Source: Mycobacteroides immunogenum (GTDB lineage: Bacteria; Actinomycetota; Actinomycetes; Mycobacteriales; Mycobacteriaceae). From it: a stretch of DNA of 64,000 nucleotides. Within the stretch, counting starts at the first letter, position 1. Each line of letters starts with the position of its first letter. Under the pieces are notes generated by a model, which was given only the letters and a program-made list of their open reading frames with translations, ran no database searches and had not been told where the DNA came from. This document shows, piece by piece, positions 126-46,977 of the stretch. The stretch is taken from the NCBI RefSeq assembly GCF_001605725.1, contig NZ_CP011530.1, positions 930,001 through 994,000 on the forward strand. Direction: 5' to 3'. The position numbers and the translations under genes are program-made.

Positions 126-143
126 ACTGGCTAGGGTGGCCCC

Positions 144-1235
144 ATGGCTGACACTGGCGTCAAGACAGGCCCTCTCGCGGGCGTAAAGGTGATCGAACTC
201 GGTGGCATCGGACCTGGTCCTCATGCGGCGATGATGTTGTCGGACTTGGGTGCAGACGTCATCCGGGTGCGGCGACCGGGTGGACTCGCGATCCCCGCGG
301 AGGAGCGCGATCTGTTCCACCGGGGTAAGCGTCTGGTCAACCTGGACGTCAAGAAGGACCCCGAGGCGCTGTTGGCCCTGGTCGACAAGGCGGATGTGCT
401 GTTGGACCCATTCCGTCCCGGGGTGTGCGAGCGGATCGGGATCGGGCCCCAGGAGTGCGCCAAGCGGAACCCGCGGCTGATCTTCGCCCGGATGACCGGC
501 TGGGGCCAGAACGGCCCGATGGCTGAGCGTGCCGGGCACGACATCAATTACCTGTCGTTGACCGGCGCCCTGGGGTCGATGGGCTACAAGGACCGCCCGC
601 CGATGCCCCCGATGAACCTGGTCGCGGACTTCGGTGGTGGCTCAATGCTTTTGGTGCAGGGCATCTTGGCAGCCTTGTACGAGCGCGAGAAGTCGGGCAA
701 GGGGCAGGTCATCGATGGTGCGATGGTGGACGGTGTGAGCCAGTTGGCTCAGATGCAGTGGACGATGTACAACAACGGTCTGCTGTTCGACGAGCGCGAG
801 GCCGGACTGCTCGACGGCGGCTCGCCGTTCTACGGCACCTACGAGACCTCCGACGGCAAGTACATGGCGGTGGGATCGATTGAGCCGCAATTCTTCGCGA
901 TCCTGGTGCAGGGTTTGGGACTGGATCCGGAGAGCGTTCCGTTCCAGCTGGACAAGGCGCGCTACCCCGAGATGCGCAAGATGTTCGACGATGCCTTCAA
1001 GACCAAGACGCGCGACGAGTGGACCGAGATCTTCATCGGCACCGATGCCTGCGTCTCGCCGGTGCTCACCTGGGGTGAGGCCAAGGAGAACGATCATCTG
1101 CGTGACCGTGGCACCATCGTCGACGTCAACGGCGTGACGCAGGCCGCGCCGGCGCCGCGGTTCTCGCGGACCCCGAGCGGGCCCATCGAGGCGCCGCCGA
1201 AGGACACGACGGAGCTCTCCGATATCGGCTGGTAA
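144..1235 (+). CDS. far: CoA-transferase family III / fatty-acyl-CoA racemase
   Basis: Predicted cytosolic alpha-methylacyl-CoA racemase-type enzyme, which epimerises 2-methyl-branched acyl-CoAs so that beta-oxidation can proceed. The 363-aa length is normal for the family. The N-terminus LAGVKVIELGGIGPGPHAAM is the family signature. H132 (in AGHDINYLS) and D162 (in NLVADFGGG) are 30 residues apart and fit the acid/base pair of mycobacterial MCR. The ATG is 18 nt after a palindrome shared with fadA. It heads the lipid-catabolism group and matches the position of far (Rv0855) in M. tuberculosis. Substrate specificity is not visible, and a true CoA-transferase role is possible. Confidence 0.88.
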   Translation: MADTGVKTGPLAGVKVIELGGIGPGPHAAMMLSDLGADVIRVRRPGGLAIPAEERDLFHRGKRLVNLDVKKDPEALLALVDKADVLLDPFRPGVCERIGIGPQECAKRNPRLIFARMTGWGQNGPMAERAGHDINYLSLTGALGSMGYKDRPPMPPMNLVADFGGGSMLLVQGILAALYEREKSGKGQVIDGAMVDGVSQLAQMQWTMYNNGLLFDEREAGLLDGGSPFYGTYETSDGKYMAVGSIEPQFFAILVQGLGLDPESVPFQLDKARYPEMRKMFDDAFKTKTRDEWTEIFIGTDACVSPVLTWGEAKENDHLRDRGTIVDVNGVTQAAPAPRFSRTPSGPIEAPPKDTTELSDIGW

Positions 1236-1250
1236 TTTAGCCGGGATTAT

Positions 1251-1265
1251 CAGTACTAGGTACTG
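1251..1265. promoter_or_regulatory. Inverted repeat CAGTAC-TAG-GTACTG
   Basis: A perfect 6-bp inverted repeat with a 3-nt centre lies in the 69-nt gap between far and the esterase gene, about 40 nt before the esterase ATG. It is well placed for an operator controlling the esterase. No regulator is identified, and a chance palindrome is possible. Confidence 0.3.
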
Positions 1266-1304
1266 GTAATCTCACCCTAGGCAATGACGCTATGAGGAGG
1301 CTCG

Positions 1305-2375
1305 ATGACCAGTGCCCGACATGCCGCCGATTCCCGGTTGGCCGAGGTGACCTATGCCGGACCGGAGTGGATGGGTAAGGCCAATTGGCACTCGGTGGCT
1401 GAGACCTACCTGTTCAAGGCGCTGGGCAAGCCGGGTCTCTACGCGTTGACCCGGCTGATGCTGGCGATCAATCGCCGGTTCCCCGATGCGCTGCTGAACC
1501 GGCGATACGACGGGCTCGAGCGCTTCATGGGCTGGGTCCCGGGCGTATCCGGGACCCGTACGGAGCGTGTTGAACTCGCGAACTGCCCGGCGGAATGGAC
1601 GTGGAACGTCAAGAACGAGCCGGAGCCGGACGCACCGGTGGTCATCTACTTCCACGGGTCGGCGTTCATTGCCTTGGGTATCAACAGTCATCGGCCGCTG
1701 GTCAGCCACATCGCGCGTGACTCCGGCGCGCGGGCATTGAGTGTGGGTTACCGGTTGTGCCCACGCAATCTGGTGGAAGACGCCGTCGCCGACGGCGTCG
1801 ACGCGTACCGCTACGTGCTGAGCCAGGGCGTCGATCCCGACAACATCGTGCTCGCGGGCGATTCGGCCGGTGGTTTCCTGGCGGCGATGACCGCCGTCGC
1901 CGTGCGTGATCAGGGGCTGACGCCGCCCGCGGGCTGCGTGCTGATCTCTGCGGCGACCAGTAACGACATGGAGCCCAAATACGCTGTCGGCAAGCGTGTT
2001 GGCGACGCCATGTTCCCGGTGGACTTCCTGCGGATGATCAACGAGGTCTTCCTGCTGCGCAACGGGGCACGGGAGCCGGGGCCATGCCCAGCCGATGCCG
2101 ACCTGTCGGGCCTGGGCCCGTTCCTGTTGCAGGTGGGCTCGCAGGAAGCGCTGCGTCCTGATTCCGAGCTACTCGCCGAACGCCTTGTCGCAGCGGGTGT
2201 TCCGGTGCGTCTTCAGATCTTTGACCGTGCCATCCACGTGTTCCAGGTATTCGCGATGACCAACCCGGACGCGCGGCGGGCGGTCGGGGAGATCACCGAG
2301 TTCATCAAAATCCTGCCGGGTCTGGCCAAGGCCCGGCACCGTCCCGGAGAGGCAACGGCCGAACTAGGCTCCTAG
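1305..2375 (+). CDS. Alpha/beta hydrolase (HSL-like carboxylesterase)
   Basis: Predicted esterase/lipase of the hormone-sensitive-lipase family, 356 aa. The oxyanion-hole motif is HGSAF (residues 117-121; the family norm is HGGG). The nucleophile elbow is GDSAGG with Ser187. A C-terminal Asp (ALRPDSE) and His (AIHVFQ) complete the triad. A GAGGAGG ribosome-binding site 5 nt before the ATG fixes the start. No signal peptide is apparent, so it is probably cytosolic. Its last 12 nt overlap convergently with dapC. Likely substrates are short-chain or lipid esters; which Lip protein it corresponds to is not resolved. Confidence 0.85.
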   Translation: MTSARHAADSRLAEVTYAGPEWMGKANWHSVAETYLFKALGKPGLYALTRLMLAINRRFPDALLNRRYDGLERFMGWVPGVSGTRTERVELANCPAEWTWNVKNEPEPDAPVVIYFHGSAFIALGINSHRPLVSHIARDSGARALSVGYRLCPRNLVEDAVADGVDAYRYVLSQGVDPDNIVLAGDSAGGFLAAMTAVAVRDQGLTPPAGCVLISAATSNDMEPKYAVGKRVGDAMFPVDFLRMINEVFLLRNGAREPGPCPADADLSGLGPFLLQVGSQEALRPDSELLAERLVAAGVPVRLQIFDRAIHVFQVFAMTNPDARRAVGEITEFIKILPGLAKARHRPGEATAELGS

Positions 2376-3533
2376 CCGCGCCAGGCGGGCGATTGCCTCA
2401 TCGATCACCGCGTCGCGTTTGGCGAAGGTGAACCGCACCAGGTGATTCCATTGGTCGGCGTACCTGTCGCAGAATGCGCTTACCGGAACTGCTGCTACAC
2501 CAACGGTTTCGGGTAGGCGCCGGCAGAGTTCCGCGCTGTCGCCGAATCCCAGTGGTCGCGGGTCGGCGCAGACAAAGTACCCACCCTGGCTGCTGTGCAC
2601 CTCGAACCCCAAGCCGGCCAGTGCTGTGGAGAGCCGATCGCGTCTGCGCTGCAACGACTCTCTGAGGTTCTTGACCCACGCCTGCTCGGTATCCAGCGCC
2701 ACCGCCACCGCGGGCTGAAACGGGCCGCCGCCGACATACGAGAGGAATTGCTTGGCGGCCCGCACGCCCGCAACCAACTCCGTTGTGCCGCAAGCCCAGC
2801 CGATTTTCCAGCCGGTGCAATTGAACGTCTTGGCGGCGCTGGAGATCGTCACGGTGCGTTCCGCCATCCCGGGCAGGCTAGCCATCGGAGTCTGCGTACG
2901 GCCGTCGAAGAGCAGTCGTTCGTACACTTCATCGGAGATGACCAGTAGGTCGTGTCGCACCGCGAGCTCGGCCACCGCGGCCAGCTCGGCATCGGTGAAC
3001 ACCTTGCCCGTCGGGTTGTGCGGCGAGTTGATGACCACCGCCGCCGTCCGCGGTGTGATCGCCGCGGCCAGCGCATCGGTGTCCAACACGAAGCCCGCGC
3101 CGTCGGGAACCAGGGGCACCGGTACGCGGATCGCGCCCGCCATCGCCACCACCGCCGCGTACGAGTCGTAGTACGGCTCGATCAAGATGACCTCGGCCCC
3201 TGGCTCGACGAGCCCGAGCAGGGCGCCCGCGATGGCCTCGGTGGCGCCGACCGTGACGAGCACCTGCGTGTCCGGGTCAAGCTCCTCGCCGTAGCGGGCA
3301 AGCCGATCGGCGGTGATGGCCCGGCGCAGCTCGGGAACGCCCAACCCGGGTGGGTACTGATTGAGACCGGAACGGATGGCCTGCTGTGCCGCATCGAGCA
3401 TGGATGCGGGCCCGTCCTCATCGGGGAAGCCCTGGCCCAGATTGATCGCGTCGTGCCGGACGGCCAAGGCCGACATCTCGGCGAAGATCGTTGCGCCGAA
3501 AGGGCGCAACCGCTCGACGGTTCTCTGATTCAC
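2364..3533 (-). CDS. dapC: N-succinyldiaminopimelate aminotransferase DapC
   Basis: Class I/II PLP-dependent aminotransferase, 389 aa. In mycobacteria the orthologous position (Rv0858c) is DapC, which makes N-succinyl-LL-2,6-diaminopimelate for lysine and peptidoglycan. Visible family features are INSPHNPTGKVF for the cofactor pocket, VISDEVYE, and the PLP lysine in SSAAKTFNCTGWKIGW. The start is GTG. Sequence alone does not exclude kynurenine/methionine aminotransferase activity, which is common in this fold; the assignment leans on synteny. Confidence 0.85.
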   Translation of the reverse strand: MNQRTVERLRPFGATIFAEMSALAVRHDAINLGQGFPDEDGPASMLDAAQQAIRSGLNQYPPGLGVPELRRAITADRLARYGEELDPDTQVLVTVGATEAIAGALLGLVEPGAEVILIEPYYDSYAAVVAMAGAIRVPVPLVPDGAGFVLDTDALAAAITPRTAAVVINSPHNPTGKVFTDAELAAVAELAVRHDLLVISDEVYERLLFDGRTQTPMASLPGMAERTVTISSAAKTFNCTGWKIGWACGTTELVAGVRAAKQFLSYVGGGPFQPAVAVALDTEQAWVKNLRESLQRRRDRLSTALAGLGFEVHSSQGGYFVCADPRPLGFGDSAELCRRLPETVGVAAVPVSAFCDRYADQWNHLVRFTFAKRDAVIDEAIARLARLGA

Positions 3534-3587
3534 GCTGGCCCGGGTTCGGTGTGCGCCGGCTTCATGCCGGGCAGCCTACCGCCGGAA

Positions 3588-3995
3588 CTAACAGCTGGGC
3601 GGCTCGAAGGACAGGTCGGTATCCGGGATTGCGCAGAAGTAATGGCTGACGCCGGGATTGCCCCGGTCATGGCTGTCCACGAACACCTCCACGTCGCGGT
3701 TGGCGTCGTACACGCGGTAATAGGTAGTGGTGTCCTCCAGGAAGAAATTGGCGACCGTGGTCACCAGCTCGGCCCCGGTGCCGCTCGCGCGGGCGCGGCG
3801 CATGCAGTTCAGGTAATCCGGCGGTATGTCGTGCGATGGCGGCAACATGCGTAGCCGGCCGCAGGACTGCAGCGGCGCCCGCTGTTCGAACGCCATATCA
3901 GCGGTGAGCGGATCCGGCTCGGCCAGCGCCAGCGGTGGGCAGCCGGCCGCGACGACAGCCATGATGGCCGGTGCCGCGCAGAAGCGTGTCAGCAT
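3588..3995 (-). CDS. Small secreted protein with Sec signal peptide
   Basis: A 135-aa protein of unknown function. Residues 1-25 (ending PPLALA, then EPDPL) form a classical signal peptide with a probable cleavage after ALA. The mature part has four Cys residues (in LQSCGRL, YLNCMRR, SHYFCAIP and the terminal PPSC), suggesting two disulfides. It ends at Cys. The same frame stays open far upstream antisense to fadA; the ATG at 3995, which directly begins the signal peptide, is the sensible start. It sits between dapC and the fadA promoter region. I do not recognise a named family. Confidence 0.65.
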   Translation of the reverse strand: MLTRFCAAPAIMAVVAAGCPPLALAEPDPLTADMAFEQRAPLQSCGRLRMLPPSHDIPPDYLNCMRRARASGTGAELVTTVANFFLEDTTTYYRVYDANRDVEVFVDSHDRGNPGVSHYFCAIPDTDLSFEPPSC

Positions 3996-4376
3996 CCCCG
4001 CAGATTCGCGGTAGCCGTGCGACAGCGGGAGGTTTCGGTGAAATCTCGTCGAAAAGCACCGCAAACCAGGCGTCCGCCTTGGGGCGCACCCCAGGCCGCG
4101 GCCCCGTTGCACCCTTCCCGCGCCGCGAACATGGCACGAATCGGGGCAGGCCCGATGAACACCGGTCTTGGTGGCCGCGATGGGTCCACAGCGCACACGG
4201 GACGCGGGTGCGCGCCGTTCCCAACCAACGGGTTGGGAGGGCTGCTTACCATGGGGCCACCTCCCTGGTCTAACGTAGGGCTGTCTCGGCGAAACTGACC
4301 CGGAGTCAATCCGGATCCAGGGCCGGGTCGCCCGCACCACATGCCCCCATACGCACCCCGATAAGGACGTATACCC
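3996..4376. other. Intergenic region upstream of fadAB
   Basis: These 381 nt separate the divergent secreted-protein gene from fadA. They contain the fadA copy of the shared 18-bp palindrome (4218-4235), about 140 nt before the fadA ATG. A possible -10-like TAACGT follows near 4271. Short open frames here show no convincing coding signal, and I see no RNA gene. Confidence 0.5.
4218..4235. promoter_or_regulatory. Palindromic operator candidate upstream of fadA
   Basis: Exact second copy of TTCCCAACCAACGGGTTG, extended here by GG to a longer inverted repeat (CCCAACC-AACG-GGTTGGG). It lies about 140 nt before fadA, just upstream of the probable promoter. With the copy before far it defines a candidate local regulon for fatty-acid oxidation. 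Confidence 0.55.
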
Positions 4377-5585
<1,209 letters not shown>

Positions 5586-5604
5586 GCTAAGGGAGCGAGA
5601 ACTT

Positions 5605-7764
5605 ATGTCTGCAAACACAATTCAGTGGGAAAAGGACGCCGACGGCATCGTCACCCTCACCCTGGACGACCCCAACGGCTCGGCCAACGTGATGAACGAC
5701 GACTACAAGCAGTCGATGGCCGCGACCGTCAAGCGCCTTGTGGAAGAGAAGGATTCGATCACCGGCGTGGTGATCACCAGCGCCAAGAAGACCTTCTTTG
5801 CCGGTGGTGACCTGACCAAGATCATCCAGATCCAGCCGGAGAACGCTCAGGAGGCCTTCAACGAGGTCGAGGAGATCAAGGCCGACCTGCGTACGCTGGA
5901 GACCTTCGGTCGTCCGGTCGTTGCCGCCATCAATGGCGCGGCACTCGGCGGTGGCCTGGAGATCGCGCTGGCCACCCATCACCGGATTGCGGCCGACGTC
6001 AAGGGATCTCAGATCGGTCTGCCCGAGGTATCGCTGGGCCTGCTGCCCGGCGGCGGCGGCGTCACCCGGGTTACCCGCATGCTCGGTATCCAGAACGGCT
6101 TCGTGACCGTGCTGGCGCAGGGCACCCGCTTCAACCCGACCAAGGCCAAGGAAGTCGGCCTGATCGATGAGCTGGTCGGCTCGGTCGACGAACTGATCCC
6201 CGCGGCCAAGGCGTGGATCAAGGCCAACCCGGAGGCCGTGCAGCGCTGGGATGTCAAGGGCTACAAGATCCCTGGTGGCACCCCGTCGACCCCGGCACTG
6301 GCGGCCATCCTGCCGTCGTTCCCGTCGAACCTGAAGAAGCAGCTCAAGGGTGCGCCGATGCCCGCCCCGCGGGCCATCCTGGCCGCCGCGGTCGAGGGCG
6401 CGCAGGTGGACTTCGACACGGCCAGCCGCATCGAGAGCCGCTACTTCACCAGCCTGGCCACCGGCCAGGTCGCCAAGAACATGACGCAGGCGTTCTTCTT
6501 CGACCTGCAGCACATCAACGGCGGTGGTTCACGTCCGGACGGCATCGCCAAGCAGGACATCAAGAAGATCGGTGTGCTGGGCGCGGGCATGATGGGCGCC
6601 GGTATCGCCTACGTCTCGGCCAAGGCCGGTTACGACGTCGTGCTCAAGGACGTCAGCGCCGAGGCCGCAGCCAAGGGCAAGGCCTACTCGGAAAAGCTTG
6701 AAGAGAAGGCTCTTTCGCGTGGCAAGACCACCGCTGAGAAGTCGGCGGCGCTGCTTGCCAAGATCACCCCGACGGCCGACCCCGCCGATCTGGCCGGTGT
6801 CGACTTCGTGATCGAGGCGGTCTTCGAGAACACCGAGCTCAAGCACAAGGTGTTCCAGGAGATCGAGGACATCGTCGAGCCCAACGCGCTCCTCGGCTCC
6901 AACACGTCGACCTTGCCCATCACCGGGCTGGCCGCGGGTGTGAAGCGCCAGGAAGACTTCATCGGTATCCACTTCTTCTCGCCCGTCGACAAGATGCCGC
7001 TGGTGGAGATCATCCGTGGTGAAAAGACCTCGGACGAGGCGCTGGCCCGGGTGTTCGACTACGTGCTGGCCATCAAGAAGACCCCGATCGTCGTCAACGA
7101 CAGTCGTGGTTTCTTCACCAGCCGCGTGATCGGCACCTTCGTCAACGAGGCCGTCGCCATGCTGGCCGAGGGCGTCGAGCCCGCGACCATCGAGCAGGCC
7201 GGCAGCCAGGCCGGATACCCGGCTCCGCCGCTGCAGCTCTCCGATGAGCTGAACCTGACGCTGATGCAGAAGATCCGCAAGGAGACTGTGGAAGCCGCCA
7301 AGGCCGAGGGCAAGGAACTGCCGGACGATCCGGCGGGCCGTGTCATCGACACCCTGGTTGAGGCGGGCCGTCCGGGCCGTCTGGGCGGTGCCGGTTTCTA
7401 CGACTACGTGGACGGCAAGCGCACCGAGCTGTGGCCCGGTCTGCGCACGACGTTCAAGACCCGTGCGGGTAATGACCCGGCGAACCCGCCACTGCAGGAT
7501 CTCATCGAGCGCATGCTGTTCGCCGAGGCCATCGAGACGCAGAAGTGCTTCGACGAGGGCGTGCTGACCTCGACCGCCGACGCCAACATCGGTTCGATCT
7601 TCGGCATCGGCTTCCCGGCCTGGACCGGCGGTGTGCACCAGTACATCCTCGGATACGACGGGCCGGCCGGAAAGGGTAAGGCCGGTTTCGTTGCTCGTGC
7701 AAAGGAATTGGCCGCCGCCTACGGTGACCGCTTCAACCCGCCTGCGTCGCTCCTGGACGCGTAA
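5605..7764 (+). CDS. fadB: Multifunctional enoyl-CoA hydratase / 3-hydroxyacyl-CoA dehydrogenase FadB
   Basis: Alpha subunit of the beta-oxidation complex, 719 aa. The N-terminal crotonase domain (about 1-190) has the oxyanion-hole segments TFFAGGDL and GAALGGGLEIALA. From about residue 315 comes the NAD-binding Rossmann motif GVLGAGMMGAG of the 3-hydroxyacyl-CoA dehydrogenase. The catalytic His lies in GIHFFSPVDKMPLVEI, followed by the C-terminal HADH domains. An AGGGAG site precedes the ATG. It is 19 nt downstream of fadA, and a strong hairpin at 7781-7816 ends the operon. Domain order and length match mycobacterial FadB. Confidence 0.97.
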   Translation: MSANTIQWEKDADGIVTLTLDDPNGSANVMNDDYKQSMAATVKRLVEEKDSITGVVITSAKKTFFAGGDLTKIIQIQPENAQEAFNEVEEIKADLRTLETFGRPVVAAINGAALGGGLEIALATHHRIAADVKGSQIGLPEVSLGLLPGGGGVTRVTRMLGIQNGFVTVLAQGTRFNPTKAKEVGLIDELVGSVDELIPAAKAWIKANPEAVQRWDVKGYKIPGGTPSTPALAAILPSFPSNLKKQLKGAPMPAPRAILAAAVEGAQVDFDTASRIESRYFTSLATGQVAKNMTQAFFFDLQHINGGGSRPDGIAKQDIKKIGVLGAGMMGAGIAYVSAKAGYDVVLKDVSAEAAAKGKAYSEKLEEKALSRGKTTAEKSAALLAKITPTADPADLAGVDFVIEAVFENTELKHKVFQEIEDIVEPNALLGSNTSTLPITGLAAGVKRQEDFIGIHFFSPVDKMPLVEIIRGEKTSDEALARVFDYVLAIKKTPIVVNDSRGFFTSRVIGTFVNEAVAMLAEGVEPATIEQAGSQAGYPAPPLQLSDELNLTLMQKIRKETVEAAKAEGKELPDDPAGRVIDTLVEAGRPGRLGGAGFYDYVDGKRTELWPGLRTTFKTRAGNDPANPPLQDLIERMLFAEAIETQKCFDEGVLTSTADANIGSIFGIGFPAWTGGVHQYILGYDGPAGKGKAGFVARAKELAAAYGDRFNPPASLLDA

Positions 7765-30941: not shown

Positions 30942-31355
30942 GTGCCAACCGGCAAGGTCAAGTGGTACGACGCCGAGAAGGGCTTCGGCTTCCTGTCGCA
31001 AGAGGACGGCGAGGACGTGTACGTCCGGTCCTCGGCGCTGCCTGCTGGCGTTGAGGGACTCAAGGCCGGACAAAAGGTCGAGTTCGGTATGGCTGCCGGT
31101 CGTCGTGGGCCGCAGGCACTGAGCCTCAAGCTGATCGACGCCCCGCCGTCGGTGCAGAAGACGCGCCGCGAAAGCAGTGGGCCGGTCAATCACAAGCACA
31201 CCACCGACGAGCTACACGGAATGATCGAGGACATGATCACTCTGCTGGAGGGCACGGTGCAGACCGAGCTGCGCAAGGGGCGTTACCCCGACCGCAAGAT
31301 CGCCCGCAAGGTGTCCGAGGTTGTCCGCGCCGTCGCCAGCGAGCTGGACGCCTGA
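30942..31355 (+). CDS. cspB: Cold-shock domain protein CspB
   Basis: 137 aa. An N-terminal cold-shock domain (about 1-65) has the RNP1-like KGFGFLSQ and RNP2-like VYVRSSAL. A mycobacterial C-terminal extension follows ([20 protein letters not shown], then [15 protein letters not shown]). It binds single-stranded nucleic acid and probably acts as an RNA chaperone. The GTG at 30942 gives the [10 protein letters not shown] start of mycobacterial CspB and has a GAGGTGAG site at correct distance. An in-frame GTG 9 nt upstream is the alternative. Confidence 0.92.
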
Positions 31356-32076
31356 CCTGACATTCATCCGCGCCGAGGATGTGAGGGCAGCGCTCGACGC
31401 TGCCGGCGATTCGGATCGTGCTCAGAAGTCGGCGCGATTCTTCAAGACCGGACCCGGCGAGTATGGCGAGGGTGACGTCTTCATCGGCGTCTCGGTGCCG
31501 GATCAACGTAAGCTCGCGCGGCAGTTCCGTGGCATCGGCCGCGATGAGGTGACGCGCTTGCTCGCCAGTGACGTGCACGAGCATCGCCTGACCGCGCTCA
31601 TCCTGGCGGTCTGGGAGTTCGAGCACGCGGAGGGTGCCGAGCGCGCTGCCTGGGTAGAGATGTATCTACGGCAGGTGCGCGCCGGCCGGGTGAACAACTG
31701 GGACCTGGTTGATTCCTCGGCGGCCCAGATCGTCGGTGAATGGCTTGTGGGGCAAGACTATTCGCTACTGTTGGAGCTGGCGGCCGAGGACGGCCTATGG
31801 CCCCGGCGGGTGGGCATCATCGGCACCTACGCGTTCATCACGCGCGGGGAGGTCGCACCGCTGCGCGCGGTGGCGCCGCTGGTTATCGAAGACCGCCGCG
31901 ACCTCATCCAGAAGGCCTACGGCTGGATGCTGCGCGAAGCCGGAAAGCGTTGCGGTACAGAGGTGCTTGTCGGCTATCTGAATGAGCACGCCGCTGCAAT
32001 GGGCCGCACCGCGCTCAGCTATGCCACTGAACATCTGGACGCCGAGGCGCGTGCGCGGTATCGCGCGCTGCGCTAG
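31321..32076 (+). CDS. DNA alkylation repair protein (AlkD-like HEAT repeat)
   Basis: DNA glycosylase-type protein of HEAT-like repeats, about 231-251 aa, expected to remove bulky alkylated bases. Family segments are [49 protein letters not shown] and [16 protein letters not shown]. The frame is open from a TTG at 31321 inside cspB. A GTG at 31381 is an equally good start, since the first 20 residues are not family-like. Its stop codon lies within the 20-bp direct repeat that bounds the low-GC island, so the island was inserted at the 3' end of this gene. Confidence 0.85.
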
Positions 32077-32092
32077 TCCTTCCAGACCGTCG
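32073..32092. repeat. Island direct repeat, left copy
   Basis: CTAGTCCTTCCAGACCGTCG, containing the TAG stop of the AlkD-like gene. Identical to 35167-35186. Probable attachment-site half. Confidence 0.8.
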
Positions 32093-32120
32093 ATGGAGCG
32101 CGGTGATTCGCGCAGCTGGC

Positions 32121-33356
32121 TCAGGCCGCCGCGATTCGGTCGATCGCATCGGCCCATCGTGTGAGGTGACTGTACGAATCGACGGCACGATTGCGGAGAG
32201 TCCCGGGGACAGCAAGAGTTTCTAGGGTAGTTTCGTAGTCGTTAGCCGTAGTCCGAAGTTCCGTAGAGATGTCGGTGGGGTTCTGTGTTCCGCAAACATC
32301 GATTTCTAGTTTTCTGCACTCCACGGAATGCTTCATAAGATCGTGATACTCATTGCTGAGGCTGAGGGGGTCGCGCGATGGCGGTTCAGTGCCCGGTGGG
32401 TCGATGAGATGTCTAGCGTGCTGCCACAGGTAACTTGCAAGTTCGATACTGACGTATCGATGCAGCCTGCGGACGTAGTAGCGCGCAGGTGCGGGCCCGG
32501 TAGATCGAAGCTCGACCCATTGCCGATGTTCTCCGTACCCGATCCCGTGAGATGACCCTAATAGCCCGAATCGCCCAAGCACTACAGAGAAGTAGCCGCC
32601 ATACAAAGCAAACAACCCTCGTCCTTGTTCATGCGCATGTCGTATGCCTTTCCCGTAGGCAACGAGATCATCAACCGTGGAATTAATCTCGCTGAGGTCG
32701 TTAACCCATACTGCCGCATTTTTATCAGGAATATCATCAATTAGATTCGGCAATGCGGAAGGGTGCGCCGCAGCGATTACTCTCCTCAGCCTCTGTGCTT
32801 CACCACGGTCTTTGGCGGTTTGGTACGAGAAGTCAAACAACTCTTTTGAGGTGGCCCACCAGGGGTCATCCTTGCTTGCTGACATAAAATACGGCGCTAG
32901 AATCAAGGTGGGTAGTCGACTTTTGCTCGGAAAGACATCTTGCCCAAGTCGCTCTGCGTACTTCTGGAAGTGTTTGGAGCTGACCGAGGTGTAGCCCATG
33001 TTAAAATCTATCCAACGTTCAGCTAGTTTTTGGCAGCGCTCTTTACTGAAATTGGACGGCTGTGGGGAATCGCTGCGGTGAATTAGCTCGGGATCTTCAA
33101 ATACAACGTCGGCTAGGTCTTGGTGGGATCTCTTGGGAGTTGCAAGTGAATTCTGAAAAAGTGGAAAACGTGGGTCGATTATATAGTTCTTCGATTCCGT
33201 TGAAGCGGACAGCGTCAGGACAAATCCTTTCGTCCCGTCCGCTTGGAAGGCGGCTACCGTTCCAGGAACCAGAAGACCGTCGTACAGTTTACGTAAATCT
33301 CTCGCGGTAACTTGATCTGTCGATCCGTAGCTTAAATAGTGCTGAAACCTCGTCAC
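32121..33356 (-). CDS. Uncharacterised island protein, 411 aa
   Basis: I do not recognise a family. The 411-aa protein is soluble, without TM segments or signal. Alternating strand/helix segments (LPTLILAPYFMSAS; NAAVWVNDLSEIN; GLFALYGGYFSVVLGRFGLL followed by GSSHGIGYGE) would fit a TIM-barrel-like core, with Gly/His-rich loops as possible active sites. The start GTG overlaps the nuclease-like gene by 4 nt, with a strong GGGGGGA site. It is the last and largest gene of the island operon, so it is likely the effector or a co-factor of the PD-(D/E)XK protein. Codon use is less GC-rich than in the flanks. Confidence 0.7.
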   Translation of the reverse strand: MTRFQHYLSYGSTDQVTARDLRKLYDGLLVPGTVAAFQADGTKGFVLTLSASTESKNYIIDPRFPLFQNSLATPKRSHQDLADVVFEDPELIHRSDSPQPSNFSKERCQKLAERWIDFNMGYTSVSSKHFQKYAERLGQDVFPSKSRLPTLILAPYFMSASKDDPWWATSKELFDFSYQTAKDRGEAQRLRRVIAAAHPSALPNLIDDIPDKNAAVWVNDLSEINSTVDDLVAYGKGIRHAHEQGRGLFALYGGYFSVVLGRFGLLGSSHGIGYGEHRQWVELRSTGPAPARYYVRRLHRYVSIELASYLWQHARHLIDPPGTEPPSRDPLSLSNEYHDLMKHSVECRKLEIDVCGTQNPTDISTELRTTANDYETTLETLAVPGTLRNRAVDSYSHLTRWADAIDRIAAA

Positions 33357-33787
33357 GATTTTCCCCCCTGCAGGATTGCATTTGTAAGACGTCTTCTGAT
33401 ACCTCGCTCAGCTTGGTTCAAAGCTGCTGCCCGCTGAATATAAGTTCGATGTTCACTGACTATTATTATGCCAATTCGATGTAGCGCGCAGAGATTCTCG
33501 TTACTAGGGGTCACCTTACGATCCATCACAATCCATGAGCGGTCAAAGCTCATGGAATTGTAAATCGCCTGCTCAATCGCGCGGCCGGTGTTTCCCATTT
33601 TTAGTTCGTATGCTGACAGGACGCCGCTATTTGTCAATGTGGAGATATCTACGTGACGTCCATTCCATGCAAGCTCGTGTACGACGACTGAATCATGTCG
33701 AACTCTGCTGGATGCCATTAGAAATCGTACCAATGGTACCTCCAGCGTGCGCTCTCCAGTCATCAGCGGCACGATTGATGATGTCAC
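33353..33787 (-). CDS. PD-(D/E)XK nuclease-like protein (sce7726-like)
   Basis: 144-aa small nuclease-fold protein. The core reads D47 (GRHVDIST), then E61-L-K63 (SAYELKMG), then Q73 (IEQAIYN). This is the order D...ExK...Q of restriction-endonuclease-like enzymes and of the sce7726 family, whose members often sit in two-gene cassettes of unknown role. The GTG start overlaps the membrane-protein stop (GTGA), with a GGGGGGAG site. It is coupled to the 411-aa gene downstream. It probably cleaves or binds DNA as part of the island system; activity is inferred from motifs only. Confidence 0.68.
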   Translation of the reverse strand: MTSSIVPLMTGERTLEVPLVRFLMASSRVRHDSVVVHELAWNGRHVDISTLTNSGVLSAYELKMGNTGRAIEQAIYNSMSFDRSWIVMDRKVTPSNENLCALHRIGIIIVSEHRTYIQRAAALNQAERGIRRRLTNAILQGGKS

Positions 33788-34335
33788 GCTCCCCCCTGAT
33801 TGCTAAATATCTCCGCCGATGACAATTTTCGATCACAATAGAAGTGGACAATCGCGAGAATTGCTCCCATTATAAATCCTAAGCTCACCAAAGAGATCCC
33901 GATGTAAAGTATGAAAGCTTGCTTCGATATATTCATAAAATAGGCTGTCGTTGCTGCCGCCCCCGTAATATAGGACAACATGGCCCAGGGTGCGATGCCT
34001 GCAAATATCAGCATCATCGTGAGCCATTTTTTAAGATTGGTGCGATACTCCAGCGCGGTTTGAAATTCAGTGACGCATGTTCTCAATTGTTCAGGATCGG
34101 ACAGGCTTCTAGCTGGGTTAAATGGAGAATCCGCTTCGCCCAACATGCGAATTGCCTCATCCCGAAGGATTTCGATCTTATGATTCGCCAACTCTCCAAG
34201 TGCTGCCGCGCATAAGTTGCTCCGAGTATGCCATTTCTCATGTAGATCTCCGCGCAGCGAGGAAGCCTTGAATAGAATGGCAATCGCAGGAAATATTACG
34301 GCGGCACTCACGCCCGCTACAGCGAGGTTATCCAT
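33784..34335 (-). CDS. Island membrane protein, three TM segments
   Basis: 183 aa, unknown family. TM1 is near the N-terminus (about 5-25, VSAAVIFPAIAILFKA). A soluble helical segment (about 30-98) follows, then TM2 (about 102-125, LTMMLIFAGIAPWAMLSYIT) and TM3 (about 141-166, ILYIGISLVSLGFIMGAILA). A membrane component in a small nuclease-containing cassette recalls abortive-infection effectors, but that is inference. It is 7 nt downstream of the winged-helix gene and overlaps the nuclease gene by 4 nt. Confidence 0.7.
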   Translation of the reverse strand: MDNLAVAGVSAAVIFPAIAILFKASSLRGDLHEKWHTRSNLCAAALGELANHKIEILRDEAIRMLGEADSPFNPARSLSDPEQLRTCVTEFQTALEYRTNLKKWLTMMLIFAGIAPWAMLSYITGAAATTAYFMNISKQAFILYIGISLVSLGFIMGAILAIVHFYCDRKLSSAEIFSNQGGA

Positions 34336-34342
34336 AGTGGTA

Positions 34343-34894
34343 TTAGTCGGTCAGAACATCCTCGCGGATTAGTGACTTTTCAGTGAAGGTGTCGTAGCGT
34401 TCATACACGTAGCGAACAAGTTGTCGAAGAGGGATTGATGCGAATTGAGACTTGAATTTGGATAGATCATCCCTCTGGTCGCGCGTCAGCGCGTTCTCGA
34501 GTTTTTCATAATATCGCCAACCCAGCGTCGTTAGTTTAAAGTCACGTGTGGTGTAGGGGTCAATGTCTGCGCTGTCGTATATAGCGTTTCCTTTTTCCCA
34601 GGAATCTTCACCTGATTTGGAATCTCTTGCCGAATCCACTAAAAGGCCGGCCGCTTCCAGCATATCCACTGCTCTGTACACCTTGGCGGAGAAAGGTCCG
34701 TAATTGTATGGCTTAAAATCGGCGGATTCTGTCATCCAGCTGTCTGCCGACGTTTCTCTTTCGAGTAGAAATATCAATTTCTCTAACCGCGTAATTCCTT
34801 GAATCTCGCCATTAAGCTGAGGGGAGCTTGGCGCTCCGAGCAGTAAGACAATGGCGTCATCGACCTCTAGATCGCCAGTAGAAATATTAGTCAC
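34343..34894 (-). CDS. Panacea/SocA-like winged-helix protein
   Basis: 183 aa from GTG 34894, chosen because GGAGG stands 8 nt before it; the frame is open further upstream without a better start. The pattern IQGITRLEKLIFLLERE (residues about 32-48) followed by FKPYNYGPFSAKVYRAVDML is that of the DUF4065/Panacea (SocA-like) fold, seen in antitoxin or proteolytic-adaptor partners and regulators. FKLTTLGWRYYEKL resembles the wing. As first gene of the operon it could be the regulator or neutralising partner of the toxic components. Assignment is by pattern, moderately secure. Confidence 0.65.
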   Translation of the reverse strand: MTNISTGDLEVDDAIVLLLGAPSSPQLNGEIQGITRLEKLIFLLERETSADSWMTESADFKPYNYGPFSAKVYRAVDMLEAAGLLVDSARDSKSGEDSWEKGNAIYDSADIDPYTTRDFKLTTLGWRYYEKLENALTRDQRDDLSKFKSQFASIPLRQLVRYVYERYDTFTEKSLIREDVLTD

Positions 34895-35166
34895 GGCTGC
34901 CGCCTCCGATTGATAGAAATAGAATACATAGAATGTCAGCTCGGTCGGAGTAATTGATCGAAACATAGCATAGGCAGAGTGTCTGTTAGGGAGCTTACTC
35001 GCAGTCCAGGCTTGTTTTTAGGGCGTTGGATATCCCGTGCATCGTTCGGACGCCTTGGGCGCCACCAGCTCAGTCTCGCAGCCTTGGCGTTGAGTGTCTC
35101 ACTGACCTCCGACAAGCTTTGGGGTTACTTGCTAGACCAGACACGTGCGGAGTATCGAGCTCGGCA
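34895..35166. other. Right junction of the island with a possible remnant of an AlkD-like 3' end
   Basis: Holds the promoter side of the island operon (AT-rich at 34905-34960). To its right, a plus-strand frame ends DQTRAEYRARH-stop exactly at the repeat. Compared with the AlkD-like end [16 protein letters not shown], the last 34 nt agree at 24 positions, and a TGGGC...GCTCAG block near 35056 also resembles the gene. It therefore looks like a diverged, decayed duplicate of the alkylation-repair gene's 3' end carried by the island. No functional gene is supported here. Confidence 0.45.
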
Positions 35167-35186
35167 CTAGTCCTTCCAGACCGTCG
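35167..35186. repeat. Island direct repeat, right copy
   Basis: Second copy of CTAGTCCTTCCAGACCGTCG. Here it is the genuine 3' end of the DUF2771 gene (codes for TVWKD-stop on the minus strand). Confidence 0.8.
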
Positions 35187-35679
35187 CCACCGACCAGACG
35201 GCGTGGGTGACCTCCAGCAGATCGCCGGTCTCGGTCTGAACCACCGTGGGCAGCTTGATCTCCAGCCCCAGTAGCCGTCGCCCCTCGCCGTCGACCGTGG
35301 GGATGGTCACCGCCGTGCGGTGGTCGCGGTACACACTCGACTCGGCCCGTTTGTGGTCGGCGTCGCCTACCGGCGCGTAGACCCGGGACAGCATCCATGG
35401 CGCCTTGGCGATCCGGCCGTCAACCGAAAGTTGCACGGGCTCATGGGCATTGACGACCAGCTGGACGGTGTGCCCAAGCGGGTCGCACTGGTCCAACTTG
35501 TTCTTGTCGCAGTACTGGTAGGGCGCGGCATGGATCACGGAGCCATGGGTGAACGCACTGATCTCTGGCCGTTCCGCGGGGCCTTCGCGATGCTCGCGCA
35601 GCTGCCAGGCGATGAACCCGACCATGCCGGCAGCCGTCAGCACCAGGACAACGGCCAGTGCCGCCAGTTTCGCTTTCAC
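35167..35679 (-). CDS. DUF2771 exported/anchored protein
   Basis: 170-aa conserved mycobacterial protein at the Rv0875c position. An N-terminal hydrophobic segment (about 5-27, LAALAVVLVLTAAGMVGFIA) serves as signal anchor. The outside domain has one Cys pair (QYCDKNKLDQCDPLG). The ATG overlaps the stop of the upstream MFS gene (ATGA), so the pair is translationally coupled. Function is unknown. The end of the gene forms the right-hand repeat of the genomic island and is intact. Confidence 0.85.
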   Translation of the reverse strand: MKAKLAALAVVLVLTAAGMVGFIAWQLREHREGPAERPEISAFTHGSVIHAAPYQYCDKNKLDQCDPLGHTVQLVVNAHEPVQLSVDGRIAKAPWMLSRVYAPVGDADHKRAESSVYRDHRTAVTIPTVDGEGRRLLGLEIKLPTVVQTETGDLLEVTHAVWSVATVWKD

Positions 35680-44625: not shown

Positions 44626-44765
44626 GTCGCCGAACTTACCGCGCACTCGGCGGAACACCGCGCCAACGGGTGTATGCCTGGGTAAACACCGCCGGGCGGA
44701 ATATCCGAGTCGGTCGGGGACCTCCTGGACCGAGGGCAACCATAGATTGCCCGAACACCTAAATA

Positions 44766-44801
44766 CTATCAAAAGCTATACGACCGTGTTTGATTTGATA
44801 G
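44766..44801. promoter_or_regulatory. Inverted repeat CTATCAAA/TTTGATAG
   Basis: Perfect 8-bp arms at 44766-44773 and 44794-44801 end 13 nt before the GTG of the dehydrogenase-like gene. The half-site TTTGATAG recurs at 48420-48427 before the alpha/beta-hydrolase gene. Candidate operator, perhaps for the PaaX-like regulator encoded between them. Confidence 0.45.
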
Positions 44802-44814
44802 GTACTATGGCGGT

Positions 44815-46044
44815 GTGAAGATACTGGCTTTGGGTGGCGCGGGCGCTATGGGCGCGGTAGCCGTACGTACCGCGCTCGGCGTGCCTGGCGTCGATGAGAT
44901 CGTCATTGCCGACCGTGATTTCGGTGCGGCCGAGGACCTGGCGCAACGATCGGGGAAGGGGGACATCCGGGTTCGCGCTGTCAGGGTTGATGTGACCGAC
45001 CAGGCGATGCTGCGGACAGCACTTGAATCAGTCGATCTCGTGCTGAACACCGTTGGTCCCTACTTTCGTTTCGGATTGACGGTGCTCCGTGCGGCGATCG
45101 AGACGCGAACGCACTACCTCGACATCTGTGATGACTGGGAGCCCACCCTGCAGATGCTCGGCCTGGATGCGGCGGCGCGTGAGCAGGGTGTCTGTGCGGT
45201 GATCGGTATGGGTGCCAGTCCGGGAATCAGTAACCTACTCGCCGCCACCGCCGCGGCGGAACTTGATGCGGTACAAGATGTCTACACCGCATGGCCGGTG
45301 GATGTCGGCGGCAGCGGTCAAGACACTGAAGGGAAGTCTCAACTGTTGGGTCCCGATGGGCGCCCGTCCGCTGCGGCAGTGCATTGGATGGAACAGGCCA
45401 GCGGCACGATCACCGGGGTCAGTGGTGGGCAGCTTGTCAAGAGAAGTCCGCTGAGTCCGATTTCGCTGAACTTGCCGGCAGGGCACTGCGGTACGGCCTA
45501 TTCGATTGGGCATCCGGAGCCGATCACGTTGCAGCGCACCCTGAAACCGGGCGGCGATGCGCTGAACCTCATGGTCATAAAGCCCTGGACGGTGGCCTAT
45601 CTCGATACGCTGCGGCGTGATATGGATGCCGGGCTGCTCAGCCGGGAGCAGGCGGCGGAGGCATTCGCGGTCCCTGCCCTGCGCCGCGTGGCACGTTCCG
45701 CGTGGGTGGCGCTTCGCCTACGAGGTCCGGGAACCTTACCGCCGTTTTTCGCCGCCGTCACCGGTGAGCGCGATGGATACCGCCGTTCCGTGCTGTCCCG
45801 CCTGAATCTGGATGGACCGCAGGCGGATCCGATCAGAAGCGCATTGCGTGATATGGCTCTGATCACGGGTGTGCCACTGGCAATGGGGATGGCGCAGGTG
45901 ATCGATGGGTCGGCACGCCGTCCGGGAGTTCACCCGCCCGAGGCGGTCATCGAACCCGAGCGGTTCTTTACCGATTTCGGAGTGGTGCTGGGGTGTGATC
46001 GCGGGGTCTCGCCGTATGTGATCGAGCAGGAGGCGTTGTCTTGA
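44815..46044 (+). CDS. Saccharopine dehydrogenase-family oxidoreductase
   Basis: 409-aa NAD(P)-binding protein. The Rossmann motif is LALGGAGAMGAVAVRTAL at the N-terminus, followed by IVIADRDFGAAEDLA and VLNTVGPYFRFG; GMGASPGISNLLA is family-typical. It is likely an amino-acid or carboxynorspermidine-type dehydrogenase, or a trans-acting enoyl reductase relative; sequence alone cannot decide. It starts with GTG right after an inverted repeat and is followed by the PaaX-like regulator gene on the same strand. Confidence 0.8.
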   Translation: MKILALGGAGAMGAVAVRTALGVPGVDEIVIADRDFGAAEDLAQRSGKGDIRVRAVRVDVTDQAMLRTALESVDLVLNTVGPYFRFGLTVLRAAIETRTHYLDICDDWEPTLQMLGLDAAAREQGVCAVIGMGASPGISNLLAATAAAELDAVQDVYTAWPVDVGGSGQDTEGKSQLLGPDGRPSAAAVHWMEQASGTITGVSGGQLVKRSPLSPISLNLPAGHCGTAYSIGHPEPITLQRTLKPGGDALNLMVIKPWTVAYLDTLRRDMDAGLLSREQAAEAFAVPALRRVARSAWVALRLRGPGTLPPFFAAVTGERDGYRRSVLSRLNLDGPQADPIRSALRDMALITGVPLAMGMAQVIDGSARRPGVHPPEAVIEPERFFTDFGVVLGCDRGVSPYVIEQEALS

Positions 46045-46116
46045 TTCGATCGCTGCCGCACCGAACGTAGGATGATTGAACACAATTCGCATGTGGCTGC
46101 TTCGTGAGGTGATTGC

Positions 46117-46977
46117 TTGGACATCCAGCACGTCCTGAACTCCGGTATCTCCACCCGCAGCCTGGTGGAGAGCATGATCCGTCAGGATGCCACCATCGCC
46201 ACCGGCGAGCTCTACGACGTTGCCAATATCCTCGGCATGAGCGACCAACAGGTTCGCCTGTGTATCAAACGCCTTGTCGCGGAGGGCCGTTTTACCCAGG
46301 AAGGGCGGGGCCGTAAGGCCATCCTGCGGGCCACCGGTACAACCAGGAACACGCTCGAGCCTGATCTGGAGTTCGTCCGTTTCATGTACGAGCAGGATCG
46401 TGGATTGGCCGGATGGGATGGCCGCTGGCACCTCGTCGGCTTCGCGATACCCGAGTCGGCGCGCGCGACCCGCGATGCGATGCGTGAAGAGGTGATGCGG
46501 CTGGGCGCCGCACCCATCCAGGGCGGCCTGTATGTATGCGCCAATTCCTGGGAGCCGAGGATCGGGGCGGCCGCGCAACGGTTGGGCGTGGCCGAGCATG
46601 TCACGACGTTCACCACGACCGACCTCGCACTCGGCGGCGTGTCCGGGGCGCGTGAACTGGCCGAGCGGCTGTGGCCGATCGACACGATCGCCGAACGTCA
46701 TCGCCGGCTGCTGGCGGTGGCCGAAGGGGTGCTTCTCGCATTACGTACCGCATCGCGAACCGAATTGCTTACCCTGGCCATCACACTGGCGGCGGAGTTC
46801 ACGGGGGCGGTCGAGCCAGATCCGCTCTTGCCTCCGCAGCTACTTCCGCAGCCGTGGATCGGCGCGGCCGCCCGGGCGGCCGTCGCGGCCTGTTGGGCAG
46901 AACTCGCGAAAACCGAGGCTGACCAACCCATCCGGCTATTCGGTTGGTACGGCGACGCCGTTCAGCAACTCATCTGA
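46117..46977 (+). CDS. PaaX-family transcriptional regulator
   Basis: 286 aa from TTG, supported by GTGAGGTG 6 nt upstream. The N-terminal winged helix is ELYDVANILGMSDQQVRLCI followed by RLVAEGRFTQEGRGRKAI. The PaaX-type central domain contains WHLVGFAIPE and GAAPIQGGLYVCANSWE. PaaX proteins are GntR-like repressors of aromatic or CoA-thioester catabolism. Its likely targets are adjacent genes carrying the TTTGATAG motif, which is inference. Its 3' end overlaps the convergent membrane-protein gene by 8 nt. Confidence 0.85.
   Translation: MDIQHVLNSGISTRSLVESMIRQDATIATGELYDVANILGMSDQQVRLCIKRLVAEGRFTQEGRGRKAILRATGTTRNTLEPDLEFVRFMYEQDRGLAGWDGRWHLVGFAIPESARATRDAMREEVMRLGAAPIQGGLYVCANSWEPRIGAAAQRLGVAEHVTTFTTTDLALGGVSGARELAERLWPIDTIAERHRRLLAVAEGVLLALRTASRTELLTLAITLAAEFTGAVEPDPLLPPQLLPQPWIGAAARAAVAACWAELAKTEADQPIRLFGWYGDAVQQLI

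Follow-up and report, generated by a model that had tools for sequence, protein, structure and literature searches.

The window analysed here is a stretch of 64,000 nucleotides (64 kb) of the Mycobacteroides immunogenum chromosome (contig NZ_CP011530.1, positions 930,001 to 994,000), within which a 3.1-kb cassette of four genes is a foreign insertion at the stop codons of two convergent genes. On its left lies an alkD-like gene (31321..32076, plus strand; DNA_alkylation, PF08713, E 6.3e-47; start taken from the longest reading) and on its right a DUF2771 gene (35167..35679, minus strand; E 6.8e-30). Both are open, and each ends inside one of two identical copies of the 20-mer CTAGTCCTTCCAGACCGTCG, the left copy (attL-like) at 32073-32092 and the right copy (attR-like) at 35167-35186. 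An earlier note on this DNA had described an identical 20-mer bracketing low-GC DNA, and the composition agrees: the island proper (32093..35166, 3,074 bp) has a GC content of 50.4% (0.504), compared with 0.651 for the remaining window, and GC at third codon positions (GC3) is 0.47-0.53 in its four genes compared with 0.79-0.85 in three flanking genes. The island holds four open reading frames (ORFs), all open and all on the minus strand: ORF1 (32121..33356, 411 aa), ORF2 (33353..33787, 144 aa), ORF3 (33784..34335, 183 aa) and ORF4 (34343..34966, 207 aa as listed). In Pfam, NCBIfam, PHROGs and PADLOC no match to a recombinase or relaxase was obtained for any of them, and the description of att-like ends with no recognised recombinase inside also stands.

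The 20-mer is the only one with more than one plus-strand occurrence in the window, and no match to it, at up to three mismatches, arose in 100 shuffles of the window. Across the whole 5.57-Mb chromosome, with up to two mismatches allowed, only the two island-end copies are present; at three mismatches there are four further places, compared with two for a reversed control pattern. The left copy starts on the final base preceding the alkD stop codon (TAG, 32074-32076), while the DUF2771 stop codon (minus strand, 35167-35169) lies inside the right copy. Upstream the repeat continues beyond what the earlier note recorded: positions 32045-32092 match 35139-35186 over 48 nt at 83%, because the right island end carries a diverged copy of an alkD 3' end. 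This stub (35139..35166, plus strand) corresponds to an alkD gene's final ~26 bp, keeps the register of the right repeat, and reads TRAEYRARH followed by the stop. It differs from the alkD ends of ten relatives at 5-15 positions in 30 nt, the nearest being the alleles of L037 and L038 (5/30 each); these 30 nt of nucleotide differences do not settle whether the left or the right copy is the original alkD end. The non-coding stretch at the right of the island (34967..35138, from the ORF positions) precedes the operon and, to judge by the arrangement of the ORFs, is the likely promoter region; no promoter-like site was called within it. One 24-nt segment here (35050-35073) matches what seems to be the same chromosomal place in several relatives at 92%, perhaps by coincidence (E about 0.08), perhaps as a further captured gene end; a tRNA end was considered and rejected, no tRNA being called at the matching places.

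The right flank was sought in 396 genomes from the genus, and the junction was inspected in the nine that share 82% DNA identity or more; a tenth relative (L063) was added from the alkD scan, giving L034-L042 and L063. The site is empty in all ten. The alkD and DUF2771 stop codons overlap in CTAG or TTAG, as expected from the earlier proposal that the island occupies the point where they would otherwise meet, and each junction carries a single copy that differs from the 20-mer at 2-4 nt. Island DNA was not found anywhere in the genomes of nine of these relatives (that of L063 was not searched). Aligning the junction, as the earlier note had suggested, produced the empty site with one copy, but not the alternative cargoes that a hotspot for exchange would hold: none of the ten relatives carries other cargo there. 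AlkD identity to named Mycobacteroides is 81-87%. The identical ORF1 protein occurs on 33 contigs, the longest of which, at 5,604,845 bp, is therefore not this chromosome; for AlkD, the cluster comprises 18 member sequences, with its representative on 29 contigs, a figure that is not comparable with the 33 of ORF1.

A side observation concerns the right-hand neighbour. DUF2771 falls into two strongly divergent allele types in close relatives, 49-59% identical (L039-L042, L063) or 82-92% identical (L034-L038), whereas the flanking proteins are steady across the same relatives (AlkD 80-86%, MFS 85-94%). This pattern suggests an allele replacement beside the same junction.

Four further loci carry these four genes in identical order: they lie in M. 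hippocampi (L175), in genome G337 (L176), in genome G817, which belongs to another genus of the same order (L236), and on plasmid pSI-1 of Arthrobacter sp. AK-1 (L178), which is typed as mobilizable. The membrane gene of L176 and of pSI-1 was assigned mainly from position and hydrophobicity. Of the module relatives whose context is known, the nearest shows 47-66% identity and occupies a different locus. Spread is sparse: ORF1 homologues were detected in 4 of the 396 genus genomes (including this genome and one doubtful match), in 2 of 394 genomes sampled from the class (this genome and the same doubtful match) and in 5 of 397 from the order, three of them weak. A protein search yielded 420 homologues among 7,997 candidates scored, and 22 contig sizes, one of them this species' own, were common to the 120 ORF1 and 120 ORF4 matches listed. 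The ORF1 matches in G093, G781, G822 and G886 are weak and were left out of the module count. With the module proteins as queries, tblastn gave no match in stretches taken from G781, G822 and G886 (L240, L238 and L239) or in the surroundings of another weak match in G817 (L237), and a scan of genome contigs with ORF1 gave no relative. Scanning viruses with the ORF1 alignment brought up two weak relatives (22-25%), and the island was absent from phage records. The att-like pattern had 28 matches in viral contigs, in which tblastn found no alkD, DUF2771 or module genes, and comparison of the island DNA with plasmids returned only an alkD-end stretch in Nocardia.

In the two mycobacterial loci a tRNA-Arg gene precedes the module, with a gap of 317 bp in L175 and 120 bp in L176. 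In the L175 segment 8738-16400, terminase-like, trypsin-like and GIY-YIG genes come after tRNA-Arg and the module, which gives this tRNA-Arg locus the look of an accumulation site. One flank of the L236 module is an 885-bp copy of two tad pilus genes (88%), the other a 342-bp copy of the beginning of the tad ATPase gene (85%). A tadG-like 3' end is present there three times in tandem, each copy beginning from the same stop codon (126, 2453 and 7334). The six ORFs scanned between these copies contain no recombinase or integrase recognised by Pfam. Both the island and the L236 insertion are bounded by repeated gene ends; this cargo is therefore found so bounded, with no recognised integrase, in two genera. 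With the mobilizable plasmid and the tRNA-Arg loci added, the cargo counts as a mobile module, and plausibly as a defence-like one, as the earlier note suggested. Two further features of L236 are recorded here: the interval 126-7334 encloses two cargo units, one of 4.9 kb with the module and one of 2.3 kb with other genes, and beside the module the left and right flanking copies are equally spaced from their tad counterparts to within 1-2 bp (4865; 4866-4867).

ORF1 belongs to no sequence family, but its predicted structure has the tRNA-guanine-transglycosylase (TGT) fold. Foldseek placed DpdA (7ui4) at rank 8 with an E-value of 6.7e-4, and VIA-align returned TGTs only, among the matches listed. 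At the level of sequence the relationship was not detected: up to E 1 the matches listed for ORF1 and for 38 members of its family include none to the TGT profile (PF01702), the ORF1 profile gave no matches to PDB sequences, and HHalign comparisons of that profile with E. coli TGT, or with E. coli TGT together with the genome's own, were not significant. In the latter comparison the sole aligned stretch, 18 columns at a probability of 0.6%, fell on the CxCxxC region. TGTs bind zinc through a CxCxxC site that follows the barrel; this motif is present in 32 of the 38 family members and is missing in ORF1 and in the five proteins that the alignment places nearest to it.

The motif D...ExK defines PD-(D/E)XK nucleases, and ORF2 is a predicted nuclease of this kind, its D47, E61 and K63 being invariant in all four aligned loci. 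Similarity to the sce7726 family (NF033832) reached 26.1 bits (E 7.1e-6), below the curated cut-off of 70 bits, and the PADLOC REase_II model matched only at E 0.0041. ORF3 is a membrane protein with one N-terminal and two C-terminal hydrophobic segments. ORF4 is a winged-helix protein resembling the DarG C-terminal domain and Panacea; it more likely starts at GTG 34894 (183 aa), as many of its homologues do. Among the matches listed by VIA-align for ORF4, most were winged helices, and its profile gave only chance-level matches to PDB sequences. The PADLOC candidate model PDC-M19A matches ORF4 weakly and matches all 20 of ORF4 and its 19 aligned relatives (best 3.8e-13), although a type I specificity-subunit model also matches 17 of the same 20 (best 3e-8). 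The PADLOC DarG model reached only E 0.0051, which does not bear on a macrodomain; SocA_Panacea (PF13274) did not match ORF4, matching two of the 20 family members at E <= 0.01 and the L236 homologue at 19.2 bits against a cut-off of 25.7. For ORF1-ORF3, PADLOC returned no convincing defence system.

How did the cassette arrive? We favour, with a probability of about 0.58, the interpretation that the island is an integrative element with no recombinase of its own, resembling a cis-mobilizable element (CIME), that was inserted site-specifically by an enzyme encoded elsewhere. A circular form would have been inserted into the overlapping alkD and DUF2771 stop codons by a recombinase of this former helper, with crossover within the 20-bp core; both reading frames would be kept, both stops lying within the core. 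The site carried by the element itself would have supplied an alkD-3'-end-like arm, now present as the stub at the right end, and the operon would spread among actinobacteria through plasmids and gene-end-bounded insertions of this kind. CIMEs, in the accessible text of PMC5704250, are flanked by attL and attR and carry neither integration nor transfer genes; the ends of the island look att-like, and no such genes were recognised among its four ORFs. It differs in being only 3.1 kb with four genes, in its target, the overlap of two convergent protein genes, and in that no related integrative and conjugative or integrative and mobilizable element sharing its site, with which it could accrete, was found either in the genome itself or at the ten relatives' junctions. 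A second parallel comes from the ssrA islands of Dehalococcoides, which are described in the available part of PMC3146451 as bounded by a 20-bp direct repeat of a gene 3' end, 15 of them having no integration module. The shared features are the 20-bp gene-end repeat and the missing integration module; there the target is tmRNA and the islands form tandem arrays next to integrase-bearing ones, whereas here there is one insertion.

Several observations weigh against this interpretation. No recombinase using this site was found: the genome has 21 tyrosine recombinase (PF00589) matches, of which the nearest, a short one, is 75 kb from the island, and serine recombinases were not searched genome-wide. 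With up to two mismatches allowed, this genome has no second element with the 20-bp core. The 20-mer is a version peculiar to this lineage, 2-4 nt away from that of the relatives, whereas the stub most resembles the L037/L038 alleles, and the element's site would therefore need to be a mosaic. In L236 the copied flank, at up to 885 bp, is longer than a site-specific core, and the search for end repeats at the tRNA genes gave none in L175 and just a doubtful 16-nt match in L176.

In a different route, less probable in our judgement but the most serious competitor, a donor cassette lying beside a foreign alkD end would have been captured by homologous or homology-facilitated illegitimate recombination, in the course of DNA uptake or distributive conjugal transfer and with no site-specific recombinase. 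The stub is indeed a piece of alkD of another type, matching L037/L038 best, and the diverged tad copies of L236 (885 bp and 342 bp) are long enough for homologous recombination; yet the tract shared in the window is only 48 nt and falls precisely on both stop codons, and random homology would not predict that the three L236 copies start at the same stop codon.

That the cassette is mobile at present, moved in trans by an integrase of a resident or visiting prophage or island at a site where cargoes are swapped, we consider improbable. The att-like ends, the four open ORFs with no recognised integrase, the identical ORF1 on many contigs including one that is not this chromosome, and the 21 tyrosine recombinase matches that could provide an enzyme would all fit; but the junctions of the ten relatives are without other cargo, the core recurs nowhere else in the genome at up to two mismatches, and no resident helper with the site was seen, so that mobilisation in trans, as the earlier note had it, is not demonstrated. 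A transposon-like insertion would account for the perfect 20-bp repeat as a target-site duplication, but it is very unlikely, since it leaves unexplained the stub of an alkD end that adjoins the right copy in register, no match to a transposase family was obtained, and no inverted repeat of at least 14 nt pairs the two ends. Least probable of all is an ancestral origin with loss from every relative, for which only the absence elsewhere speaks, against divergent GC and GC3, the ten empty sites and a nearest module relative at another locus.

Returning to the cassette favoured above as CIME-like, we infer from its genes that the operon combines a winged-helix regulator or antitoxin, a membrane protein, a PD-(D/E)XK-like nuclease and a TGT-fold protein. 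This gene content, with the sparse and mobile spread, points to a role in defence or conflict as the most likely benefit of the cargo. TGT homologues occur in Dpd and in BREX-related capture systems (PMC12839542, in the part available), the partner sets of neither of which were recognised in the four genes. The module resembles Dpd in joining a TGT-fold protein to a nuclease-like protein and in the presence of DpdA among the Foldseek matches of ORF1; it differs in that no DpdB or DpdC was recognised in the four genes, no PF01702 match was obtained, and QueC did not exceed its cut-off in this genome (one weak match, 20.4 bits). With a canonical TGT gene elsewhere (349375-350541) but no QueC over the cut-off, it is unlikely that this cell makes a preQ0-based mark. 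From DarTG it differs in that neither DarT nor a macrodomain was recognised in the four ORFs. Panacea-domain antitoxins counter diverse toxins, several of them membrane-acting, according to the accessible portion of PMC8832971; unlike those of PanAT systems, ORF4 itself has no Panacea match.

A tentative proposal, which we would not expect to hold in full, is that the operon is an undescribed compact immune system of actinobacteria. The TGT-fold protein might recognise or exchange a base of nucleic acid with no 7-deazaguanine genes of its own, a membrane-anchored nuclease might destroy the target, and the DarG/Panacea-like protein might exert restraint, the whole travelling as an integrase-less packet to the stop codons of convergent or terminal genes by means of other elements' recombinases. 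The literature searched, from which subscription papers and preprints were mostly out of reach, gave no description of a TGT-fold protein paired with a nuclease-like protein outside Dpd. Of the prophages of M. abscessus, 29 attB sites are described in the available main text of PMC10654092, in which the word 'alkylation' does not occur. Small, integrase-less, gene-end-bounded cassettes are easily overlooked. The same cargo is found twice bounded by gene ends, in two genera, as well as behind tRNA genes and on a plasmid, and this recurrence means that the movement of single defence-like operons, whether mobilised in trans or driven by homology, can be tested directly.

Two minor observations concern recombinase genes elsewhere on the chromosome. 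Tyrosine recombinase matches occur in neighbouring pairs at 44678-46910 and 566885-569267, and the canonical TGT gene is itself flanked by two such matches (346405-359574).

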